Positions 55,821 to 59,408 of a stretch of DNA of 64,000 nt are shown piece by piece. The notes beneath the pieces are model-generated. The model was not told the DNA's origin, ran no database searches, and saw only the letters and a program-made list of their open reading frames with translations. A program made the position numbers and the translations under genes. The number at the start of each line of letters is the position of its first letter. Positions within the stretch are counted from its first letter, which is position 1. Origin of the DNA: Gemmatimonadaceae bacterium (GTDB taxonomy: Bacteria; Gemmatimonadota; Gemmatimonadetes; Gemmatimonadales; Gemmatimonadaceae); the NCBI GenBank assembly GCA_030835125.1, contig JAUQWM010000039.1, positions 1-64,000 of the forward strand. Direction: 5' to 3'.

Positions 55821-58800
55821 TCAAGCCTCGCGAAGCGCCTCCATCGGGTCGGTCCGTGAGGCGCGCCAGGCTGGCACAGCCGCCGCCAGCAGTCCCACTG
55901 CGGCGATCGTCAGGATGGCGGTACCGAACACGAACGGGTCGCCCGGCTCGACCTCGAACAGCAGCGAAACGGCGAGCCGCGACAGGAACCACGCACCGGC
56001 CAGCCCGACCGCGATCCCCGCCGCGACCACGCGCGCCCCGCTGCCGAGCACGAGCCGCCGCAACTGCCGGCGGTCCGCGCCTAACGCGGCCCGCACCGCC
56101 ATTTCCCGGGTGCGCTGCGCCGCCGCGAACGACAGCACTCCGTACACCCCGATGGTCGCCAGGACGAGAGACAGCGCGCCGAAGACGACCAGGGTCGACA
56201 TGGTGAAACGGCGCGTCGCGGTCACCCGGTCCGCGTGCGTCCTGAGGAACGCGAGGTCGGCCGGAATGGTGGCATCCGCCGCGCGCACGCGCTCCCGGAC
56301 GGCCGCCATGATCGCGGCGTCGGATCCGGTGCCACGCACGACCACGCTCATCGTGCCGATGCGCCATGGCGGGAGCTGGCGGTACAGCACGTACATCTCC
56401 GAGGTCTCGTCGGTCTCGTACCCGAACGGCCGAGCGTCGCTCACCACGCCGACGACCGTCAGCCACGGTGCGCCGGAGCCCATGGCCTCCATGCTGGAGG
56501 CGCGGACCCGCCGGCCGAGGGGTGACTCACCGGGCCAGTATCGATCCGCCATCCGCTTGCTGATCACAGTCACGCGCGGCCCATCCGGCCGGTCGCTCGG
56601 CTCGAAGGCGCGTCCCTGCAGCAGGCGCATGCCAAGCGTCTCGAAATAGCCGTCGCTCACCATCCGATACCCGGCCCCGGCGCCGGGGATGTCCTTTCCG
56701 GCGATCTCGATGAACCCGGTGCCGCCGCGCACGAGCGGGACCCAGTTCACCAGCCCGGCTCCCCGGCTTCCCGGCATCTCGACGAGCGAGCGTCGCAGTC
56801 GCTCCCAGTAGGCGAGCACCGCCGCGCTGTCGCGATTGAACCGCGGTCCACCGAGGGTGATCTCGGCAACGACCACGCCATCGGTCTCGAAGCCGAGGGG
56901 TCGTCCCAGCACTGCGCGCATGCTCTGCACGAGCAGCCCCGCGCCCGTGACCAGCATCAGGGCCATGGCGACCTCCGCCGCGACAAATGCGCGGCCCGGC
57001 AAGCCACGGCCTCCCTCGACATGACCTCGGGCCGCACCCTCCATCGCCCGGCCCGGCGCCACCCGGGTCGCGCGAAGGGCAGGGAGCAGCCCGGTCGCGA
57101 TCCCGGCCAGCGTCGCCACCACCAACGCAAACGCAATCACGCGGATATCGATCGATATCGAGCCCGTGCGGGGAAGCTCCGCGGCTCCGAGCACCGCGGC
57201 GCTGCCCGTGAGCAGGCGCGCCAGTCCGATGCCCAGGGCGCCGCCGATGAGCGCCACCATCAGGTGATCCGCGAGCACCTGCCTGACGAGTCGCGCCCGA
57301 CTGGCGCCGAGCGCGGCGCGCACCGCCATCTCGCGACCACGGACGGCGCCCTGCGCCAGGTTGGCACTGGCGAGATTCGCGCAGGCAATGAGCAGGACCA
57401 GCACCACGGAGCAAGCCATGAGCACGAGCGTGTCCGCCGAGTCCCCGACGAGCTCGTCGGCCAGGGACTTCACGCCGACACCCCAGGAATACAGGGCCAC
57501 CGGGTCCTCCGCCCGGATGCCGCCGGCAATCGCGGAGAGGTCGCGCTGTGCCTCCTCCAGCGAGACCCCCGGTCCCAGCCGGGCGATGGCGGCGTAGTTG
57601 ATGTTGTTTCGTTCGAGGCCGCCGAATGTGCGAGGCCGGTCCAGCAGGTAGACCTCGGTGCCATCGGGCCAGGCATGATTCGCGTCGACGACGCCGGTCA
57701 CTGCGTAGCTGAATCCGTTGACCTGGATCGAGAGATCATCGATCGGTGTGTTGGCGAGCCGGCGATTCCAGAAACCCTCGGTGATCACGGCGAGTCGCTC
57801 GGGTGATGCCGCGTCGGCCTGGCGGAACCCGCGCCCGGCGATGAAGCGCGCCTGCAGCACGGAGAAGAAGCCGGCACTCACCGACTGGCCGTTCGCGCGA
57901 ACCGCTTCGGCACCCCAGCCGACGGAGAGACGTCCCGCCTGATGGATCGCCGTCGACTCCAGTGAACGATTCCTGTCCTTCCAGTCCGACCAGTTGGCCG
58001 AAGAGACGCGCGAGAAGGCGGATCCGGAGGAATCCACGGACTGTAGCGCGACCAGGCGCGCGGGTTCCGGAAATGGCAGTGGACGGAGCAGCACGCCGTT
58101 GATGACCGCAAACGCGGCGGTGGCGAGCCCGATCCCGAGCGTCAGGGTCAGGATCGCCATGATCGTGAGGCCGGGACTCCGCCGACGCTGGCGTAGGGCA
58201 TAGACGATGTCCTGGCGAAGCGTGCCAATCCATTCACGTGCTTGCATGGGTTTCGCTCTCGACGGGGTGGGACCGGAGGCCAGGGTCCGCAACTGTCGCA
58301 GTGCGCGCGTCCCTCCCACCGACAGGGCGGTGCGCCACGGCGCGGCGGTCCGGGAAGCAAGGCGAATCTCCTCGGCGAATTCTCCCGCAGACTGCGGGCG
58401 CTTCGCCGGGTCGACCGACATGGCGCGCTCTATCGTGAGGGCGACATCGATGGGCACGTCCGGCGCGAAGCGCCGCAACGGTGGCGGCATCTCATGGAAG
58501 CGTCGCGAGACGACCTGCTGCGTCGTCTCGCCGCCGAAGGGCGTTCGTCCGGCGAGCATCTCCCAGGCAACGCACGCCAGGCTGTACACGTCGGAGCGAG
58601 GATCCAGGTTCGACTCACCCGACGCCTGTTCAGGACTGACGTAGGCCGGCGTCCCCGCGGAGAAGTCGAGTTCCCGGCGCAGCGACATCCACTCGAGCGC
58701 TTCGGCGTGCAGCTTGCGGGCAATCCCGAAGTCCATGACGTAGGCGTGCGCGCCCTCGAGCAGGATGTTCTCCGGCTTGATGTCGCAATGGAGGACGCCC

Positions 58801-59408
58801 TGTTCGTGAGCATGTCCCAGTCCCGCGGCGATGCCGTCGAGGAGCACGATCGCTTCGCCGAGGGGAAGACGGGTCGTGGCGCGGAGCCTCGCACCGAGGG
58901 AACCGCCACGCAGGTAGGGCATGACATAGAACGGGCTTTCCGCGCGTACTCCGGCATCGAAGAGCGGAAGGATGTGCGGGTGTTGCAGCCGCGACACCAG
59001 CGCGATTTCCTGGAGGAACTGTGAGGCCCCGACGCCGGCGACGGCCTCCTCGGCAACCATCTTGAGCGCGACCACGCGCCCGAGCGTGAGATCGTTGGCG
59101 AGGTAGACCGTGCCCATCCCGCCCTGCCCGATCTCGGACGTGAGCTCGAACCGTGCCGCGATCGCCAGCCGGAAATCGAACCCGGCGTCCCTCGGCGAAG
59201 GGTCCCGTTCGAAAAGGTCCCGTTCGGCCACCCCAAAGACCTCGGCCAGGCGCTCGCGCGTCTTCGCGGACGGGTAGGGATGCTTCCCGCTGCGCAGGTC
59301 GGACCAGTGTCCGCGCGACAGGCCGAGCCGCATGGCCCAGTGGTTCTGGCTGACGCGGCTGCGCGAGAGCAGCTGCTCGAGTCGATCCAGTCGGAGTCGG
59401 TATCGCAT
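55821..59408 (-). CDS. HTH-Ser/Thr kinase-MacB/FtsX (ADOP) permease fusion
   Basis: One uninterrupted 1195-residue frame. Residues 1-65 form an XRE-like helix-turn-helix (WAMRLGLSRGHWSDLRSGKH). Residues 84-350 are a Hanks kinase with GQGGMGTVY (94-102), Lys116, HCDIKPEN (207-214; Cys in place of the usual Arg), DFG (226-228) and SPEQASGE. From about 395 a full duplicated permease follows: REWIGTLRQDIVYALRQRRRSPG, TM1 with LTLGIGLATAAFAVINGVLLRPLPFPEP, a periplasmic MacB_PCD-like domain, three TMs around VVLVLLIACANLASANLAQG, then a second copy ending in FGALSLVLATIGVYGVLSFAAAQRTREMAVRAALGA. Met388 (58247) could start a stand-alone permease. No ABC ATPase is adjacent. A kinase output gating or sensing by the permease is inference. 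Confidence 0.9.
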   Translation of the reverse strand: MRYRLRLDRLEQLLSRSRVSQNHWAMRLGLSRGHWSDLRSGKHPYPSAKTRERLAEVFGVAERDLFERDPSPRDAGFDFRLAIAARFELTSEIGQGGMGTVYLANDLTLGRVVALKMVAEEAVAGVGASQFLQEIALVSRLQHPHILPLFDAGVRAESPFYVMPYLRGGSLGARLRATTRLPLGEAIVLLDGIAAGLGHAHEQGVLHCDIKPENILLEGAHAYVMDFGIARKLHAEALEWMSLRRELDFSAGTPAYVSPEQASGESNLDPRSDVYSLACVAWEMLAGRTPFGGETTQQVVSRRFHEMPPPLRRFAPDVPIDVALTIERAMSVDPAKRPQSAGEFAEEIRLASRTAAPWRTALSVGGTRALRQLRTLASGPTPSRAKPMQAREWIGTLRQDIVYALRQRRRSPGLTIMAILTLTLGIGLATAAFAVINGVLLRPLPFPEPARLVALQSVDSSGSAFSRVSSANWSDWKDRNRSLESTAIHQAGRLSVGWGAEAVRANGQSVSAGFFSVLQARFIAGRGFRQADAASPERLAVITEGFWNRRLANTPIDDLSIQVNGFSYAVTGVVDANHAWPDGTEVYLLDRPRTFGGLERNNINYAAIARLGPGVSLEEAQRDLSAIAGGIRAEDPVALYSWGVGVKSLADELVGDSADTLVLMACSVVLVLLIACANLASANLAQGAVRGREMAVRAALGASRARLVRQVLADHLMVALIGGALGIGLARLLTGSAAVLGAAELPRTGSISIDIRVIAFALVVATLAGIATGLLPALRATRVAPGRAMEGAARGHVEGGRGLPGRAFVAAEVAMALMLVTGAGLLVQSMRAVLGRPLGFETDGVVVAEITLGGPRFNRDSAAVLAYWERLRRSLVEMPGSRGAGLVNWVPLVRGGTGFIEIAGKDIPGAGAGYRMVSDGYFETLGMRLLQGRAFEPSDRPDGPRVTVISKRMADRYWPGESPLGRRVRASSMEAMGSGAPWLTVVGVVSDARPFGYETDETSEMYVLYRQLPPWRIGTMSVVVRGTGSDAAIMAAVRERVRAADATIPADLAFLRTHADRVTATRRFTMSTLVVFGALSLVLATIGVYGVLSFAAAQRTREMAVRAALGADRRQLRRLVLGSGARVVAAGIAVGLAGAWFLSRLAVSLLFEVEPGDPFVFGTAILTIAAVGLLAAAVPAWRASRTDPMEALREA

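Follow-up and report, generated by a model that had tools for sequence, protein, structure and literature searches.

We identified a gene in a Gemmatimonadaceae bacterium whose product joins an XRE-type HTH, a Ser/Thr kinase, and a permease of the ADOP family in one polypeptide. The gene lies in a 64,000-nucleotide stretch of contig JAUQWM010000039.1, which we refer to as the window. The same domain order recurs in related genomes, and a direct repeat is conserved upstream of the fused genes. We lean slightly toward reading the fusion as a one-polypeptide, self-addressed envelope signaling device.

Results

Architecture of the fused protein

A first-pass annotation had proposed that positions 55821-59408 encode a single polypeptide with an HTH, a kinase, and a permease, and both the coordinates and the architecture proved genuine. 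The gene lies on the minus strand (Table 1), where the frame is uninterrupted from 59765 to 55821 (1314 aa; 1195 aa from the ATG at 59408); the plus-strand reading of 55821-59408 is broken by in-frame stops. The ATG at 59408 is the likely start because the starts of relatives fall on the same HTH position, which reads [MVL]-R-x-R-L. A Pfam scan of the fusion identified Pkinase (3.4e-43), two stretches of MacB_PCD (1.5e-30), and two stretches of FtsX (1.3e-25). In an NCBIfam scan, the ADOP model TIGR03434 scored 724.5 bits against a curated cut-off of 622.3 and was covered in full (model positions 1-802), which supports the prediction of a complete ADOP-type permease. All four of these models had been named in the annotation for such a search, and a fifth, HTH_31, was matched by the HTH as an isolated domain.

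Table 1. Features of the fused gene and its upstream region, in window coordinates
Feature	Position	Strand	Size, location, or evidence
Whole gene, XRE-HTH / Ser-Thr kinase / ADOP permease	55821..59408	minus	1195 aa, ATG at 59408
Candidate operator CGAACaccttgtcCGAACACTT	59479..59500	minus	71-92 bp upstream of start codon; motif search and genome scan
XRE/Cro-C1-type HTH, residues 1-66	59211..59408	minus	Family conservation, HTH_31 domain match, AlphaFold2
PknB-type Ser/Thr kinase, residues 84-346	58371..59159	minus	Pfam Pkinase, alignment, AlphaFold2, fold comparison
Linker, residues 347-395	58224..58370	minus	17% mean identity across fused family
Met388 in linker	58245-58247	minus	Sits where the start codon of a bare ADOP would be
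TIGR03434 ADOP duplicated permease, residues 397-1194	55827..58220	minus	NCBIfam, Pfam, hydrophobic segments
Best MacB_PCD stretch, residues 415-626	57531..58166	minus	Pfam
Best FtsX stretch, residues 1075-1188	55845..56186	minus	Pfam

The N-terminal XRE-like HTH had been placed at residues 1-65, and the domain we delimited is one residue longer. HTH_31 was below threshold in the whole-protein scan (21.5 bits, cut-off 27). When scanned as an isolated domain, the HTH matched HTH_31 (28.7, cut-off 27) and HTH_26 (23.7, cut-off 22) and fell slightly under the cut-off for HTH_19. HTH_31 was matched by 14/14 family members at E≤0.01, and residues R2, L5, L10, Q21, N22, A25, S31, G33, H34, G41, S47, T50, L65, and F66 are invariant in 14 relatives. 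In the recognition helix, G33 and H34 are invariant in 22/22 copies and S31 is present in 21/22, including the seven paralogues of the fusion that one genome carries. AlphaFold2 modeled residues 1-395 with a mean pLDDT of 87, as a helical HTH bundle (helices at residues 7-15, 21-27, 32-40, 48-58, and 62-65) and a kinase. Searching the wider class with the HTH produced just two further matches, both weak and both to short XRE-like frames without a kinase. These frames (L251:1056-1259, plus strand; L252:145-345, minus strand) start with R-x-R-L and come from another family of the class; as distant relatives of the fused HTH, they are its possible source.

The kinase contains K116, E134, HCD at 207-209, N214, DFG at 226-228, and SPE at 258-260, so that the Lys, Glu, catalytic Asp, Asn, and DFG are all present. 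This residue check confirmed the earlier assignment of Lys116, Asp209, and the DFG, as well as the presence of HCD in place of HRD. Catalytic residues are intact in 21/21 readable fused kinases. HCD is found in 20/21 of them, with HRD in L207, whereas 99/109 of the unfused kinases we compared have HRD. With C208 in place of the Arg that precedes the catalytic Asp in RD kinases, the window kinase falls outside that class. The replacement of HRD by HCD suggests that the fused kinases rely less on activation-loop phosphorylation. Among solved structures, PknB and PknA are nearest to the kinase in both sequence and fold.

The ADOP permease has about eight predicted TM helices (4+4) separated by two large loops, and it contains two periplasmic MacB_PCD domains. 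Met388, flagged earlier as a possible internal start, falls at the start of the permease. The window genome (4.48 Mb) contains 46 full-length ADOPs (loci L001-L046), and only one of the 46, the permease of this fusion, carries an HTH-kinase.

Recurrence of the fusion

With the first 501 residues as query, a search across 298 genomes of the phylum identified 12 more fusions. A profile of the HTH alone produced 22 matches in 13 of the 288 genomes of the order (E 1e-41 to 1e-28), and no match fell between 1e-28 and the limit of 1e-7. In 19 of the 22 copies, the window's included, the frame runs from HTH to kinase to ADOP permease, and 17 of these are complete. The 16 other complete frames are open over 1176-1262 aa, contain the same three parts, and come from nine other genomes. 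At least two copies are present in Gemmatimonadota bacterium bin1440 (CP070792.1). The domain order that the annotation had suggested looking for in other Gemmatimonadota is therefore present in relatives from other genomes.

Many of the genomes we compared are fragmented assemblies. The permease is interrupted by an N-gap or contig end in L098 and L202, and three short HTH frames (L087 of G198, 444 aa; L204 of G398, 403 aa; L205 of G381, 317 aa) each stop at an N-gap or contig end. We considered whether these loci represent separate halves and ruled this out based on their truncation at N-gaps and contig ends. A stop at the kinase-permease junction, or halves that are separate in relatives, would have spoken against the annotation. 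We encountered neither, and the HTH-kinase runs into an ADOP wherever the sequence suffices.

No relative was found among the viral contigs searched. Among plasmid records, both parts were covered solely by Gemmatirosa kalamazoonensis plasmid 2, as separate kinase and ADOP frames. There, the kinase gene is followed by the ADOP gene on the same strand (L179:2977-7913).

Separate histories of the two halves

Within the fused family, mean pairwise identity declines from 60% in the HTH and 57% in the kinase to 29% in the permease and 17% in the linker. The HTH-kinase halves group in a single supported clade, which also includes two standalone HCD kinases that have neither an HTH nor a permease (L055:1360-2367, minus strand; L056:1414-2559, plus strand). 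The ADOP halves are scattered on a 69-row ADOP tree with 10 label changes, at least four of which are forced by starred branches. A single clade of fused ADOP halves was rejected by an AU test on a 26-row subset of this set (p=0.0007). The HTH-kinase from the window is sister to that of L082, and the window permease clusters with those of L083 and L206. Keeping the window and L082 permeases together was rejected (p=1.4e-6), as was keeping the HTH-kinases of the window, L083, and L206 together (p=9e-10); the groups in these constraint tests were picked after the trees were seen. That the HTH-kinase halves form one clade and the ADOP halves do not indicates that the module has been joined to different permeases. 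Several fusions retain a Met at or close to the point where a bare ADOP starts, which would be expected had the module been added in frame ahead of complete permease genes. We conclude from the tree topologies that one HTH-kinase module is attached to different ADOP lineages.

A direct repeat upstream of the fused genes

The direct repeat CGAAC-N5(-8)-CGAACACTTT is present upstream of 21/22 fused genes when up to two mismatches are tolerated in the second half-site. It lies at -62 to -190 and always has the orientation of the gene. The half-sites are mostly 10 bp apart, and the site in the window has an N8 spacer. Motif searches of the 22 upstream regions gave an LLR of 142 for a palindromic motif of width 18, compared to 32-42 in five dinucleotide shuffles, and 169 for a free motif of width 16, compared to 51-62 in five such shuffles. 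L089 lacks the site, and its copies in L081, L085, L087, L088, L098, L206, and L207 are imperfect. L089 (upstream of 11422) is the sole fused gene without a CGAAC site, and its recognition region is also divergent (SSGHLADLVNGKTSYPS).

An exact match to CGAACN{4,8}CGAACACTT occurs once in the window genome, at 59479-59500, and the chance expectation for this pattern within the window is none. The 13 HTH-bearing genomes contain 19 exact matches, of which 14 are upstream of fused genes and five are within reading frames. We take these five as chance matches since they are inside reading frames; exact promoter copies are limited to fused genes. The 275 genomes of the order without the HTH contain about 85 exact matches, or 0.31 per genome, and the background in HTH genomes is 5 in 13, or 0.38. 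These similar rates indicate no further exact sites and no wider regulon, though weaker sites would escape the pattern. Given its co-occurrence with the HTH, the repeat is probably the HTH's own candidate operator.

Several fused genes also have a -10-like element, TATCTT, 45-46 or 56 nt downstream of the repeat (LLR 28, compared to a maximum of 22 in 12 shuffles). With this element as the -10, the repeat would lie on the upstream side of the promoter, like the sites of many activators. The position of the repeat thus hints weakly at activation.

Gene neighborhoods

We compared the fused genes to 56 unfused ADOPs, 45 from the window genome and the remainder from the vicinity of fused genes. 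A PadR gene lies upstream of 31/56 unfused ADOPs, with its end about 215-290 nt before the start of ADOP homology, and upstream of 0/15 fused genes, counted from the HTH start (Fisher p=6e-5, a value that ignores the relatedness of the genes). More than half of the 46 ADOPs in the window genome have a PadR gene just upstream. Permease prefix domain 1 or 2 (NF038403/NF038404) is present in the unfused ADOPs we inspected as examples, one of which also has a sub-threshold HAAS match; the NCBIfam scan of the window fusion produced no match to a prefix domain. In position, the fused HTH-kinase corresponds to the PadR gene and the prefix (HAAS-like) domain of many unfused ADOPs.

No ATPase, histidine kinase, or response regulator gene was found among the window neighbors tested. 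The annotation had described ADOPs as permeases without an ATPase partner; this holds at the window locus but not in the fused relative L080, where a gene for an FtsE/MacB-type ABC ATPase is directly downstream of the fusion (L080:5851-6567, minus strand), the sole case among the fused loci examined. Neighbors vary between fused loci, and we saw no conserved partner gene across the neighborhoods compared. In the window, a divergent TonB-dependent receptor gene (59817-62102, plus strand) adjoins the fusion, and other fused loci have other neighbors. An ECF sigma factor gene (PF07638; 62232-62828, plus strand) follows, and after it a gene for a Ser/Thr kinase of 884 aa (L090:6837-9491). We rejected a tie between this ECF sigma factor and the fusion, since the sigma factor has its own downstream kinase and no such ECF gene is near other fused loci in the stretches compared.

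Discussion

The reading toward which we lean, a self-addressed signaling device in one chain, can be laid out as follows. The ADOP permease would be an inner-membrane protein whose periplasmic domains act as receptor or actuator, and the kinase would be carried on the cytoplasmic N-terminus of TM1, where MacB bears its ATPase domain. A ligand or load on the periplasmic side would move the permease and alter the state of the kinase. The kinase, probably through (auto)phosphorylation of the N-terminal part, would then alter binding of the XRE-type HTH to the CGAAC direct repeat in the promoter of its own gene, and thereby the amount of permease. We infer HTH binding to the repeat, the activity of the kinase, the signal, and the direction of signaling from sequence, as we do the gating of the kinase by a transmembrane permease sensor. 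A fuller version, to which we give even chances, is a single-protein circuit. Here, the MacB-type permease would be a receptor or flux sensor, the kinase a transmitter, and the HTH a regulator whose own promoter is its only exact promoter site; the HTH-kinase and its operator would form a plug-in joined at or near the native start codons of different orphan permeases.

A different and fairly unlikely explanation is that the kinase controls the permease. Phosphorylated cytoplasmic helices, rather than ABC-type ATP hydrolysis, would gate efflux or mechanotransmission, while the HTH would do no more than autorepress to steady the protein level. In MacB, which acts by mechanotransmission, TM1 is preceded by a cytoplasmic ATPase domain at the N-terminus (PMC5985334), so the position of the kinase fits this proposal, as do the lack of an ATPase gene among the window neighbors tested and the occurrence of exact promoter copies of the repeat at fused genes alone. 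However, phosphate transfer to a site differs from a cyclic motor, the ATPase encoded next to the L080 fusion suggests that the permease may use an ATPase in trans, and one module is found on widely differing permeases. The fusion and MacB, a type VII ABC transporter, share an N-terminal cytoplasmic ATP-using domain, TM1, a periplasmic domain, and three TM helices. They differ in that the N-terminal domain of the fusion is a kinase rather than an ABC ATPase, and in that the permease is duplicated in one chain.

We consider it decidedly unlikely that the fusion is a receptor kinase for separate cytoplasmic substrates, in which a MacB-type sensor would replace PASTA domains and the HTH would be a small autoregulatory or protein-binding domain. 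The kinase is PknB-like and complete, as this model would have it, but the neighborhoods we compared contain no conserved partner gene and the HTH is the best-conserved part of the protein. PknB-type transmembrane kinases share the kinase fold and residues and a transmembrane sensor architecture with the fusion, which differs from them in its multi-pass permease as putative sensor, its N-terminal HTH, its HCD for HRD, and its lack of PASTA domains.

It is highly improbable that the repeat serves as a promoter element or is recognized by a different regulator, such as an ECF sigma factor, with no tie to the fused HTH. CGAACACTTT resembles the GGAAC/GAACTT type of ECF -35 element, and an ECF gene is nearby in the window. 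In the stretches compared, though, no ECF gene of that family is near other fused loci, and the exact pattern occurs once in the window genome rather than at many promoters. The half-sites also form a direct repeat with a spacing of about one helical turn, and the -10-like TATCTT, where present, is 45-56 nt downstream instead of about 16. Finally, an assembly or annotation join of two neighboring genes can be ruled out with near certainty because the same architecture occurs without stops in other genomes.

The annotation's author knew of no such architecture, and we likewise found no description of an HTH-kinase-ADOP protein in the open-access subset of papers searched. Among arrangements already described for this kind of permease, the closest is the HAAS-PadR dyad of FtsX/MacB_PCD permeases, proposed as an alternative to two-component systems (PMC11237479). 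The dyad and the fusion share a MacB/FtsX permease, a cytoplasmic N-terminal regulatory domain, and a coupled DNA-binding regulator. The unfused ADOPs of the window genome resemble the dyad, with their prefix domain and a PadR gene just upstream, whereas the fusion has an XRE-type HTH in the chain, a Ser/Thr kinase for the prefix domain, and no PadR gene. BceAB-BceS-BceR modules are an established case in which a MacB-like permease acts as sensor for a kinase, and the kinase in turn controls the genes of that permease (PMC10314905). These modules also combine a MacB-superfamily permease bearing a large extracytoplasmic domain with a kinase and own-gene control (PMC10314905). The fusion differs in having a Ser/Thr kinase for the histidine kinase and an HTH for the response regulator, with all parts covalently joined; in addition, no ATPase gene was seen at the window locus, and the phylum is different. 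By analogy, the best reading of the fusion is as a covalently joined equivalent of both the HAAS-PadR-ADOP dyad and Bce modules.

ADOPs are present in dozens of copies in the window genome and are rarely named in the open-access literature searched. With a kinase and a DNA-binding domain covalently attached to an ADOP and a candidate site for the latter in hand, the question of sensing versus transport by ADOPs becomes testable. The fusion family illustrates how domains can be swapped repeatedly at one defined junction, and it would parallel, with a Ser/Thr kinase, the sensing that histidine kinases carry out through transporters.
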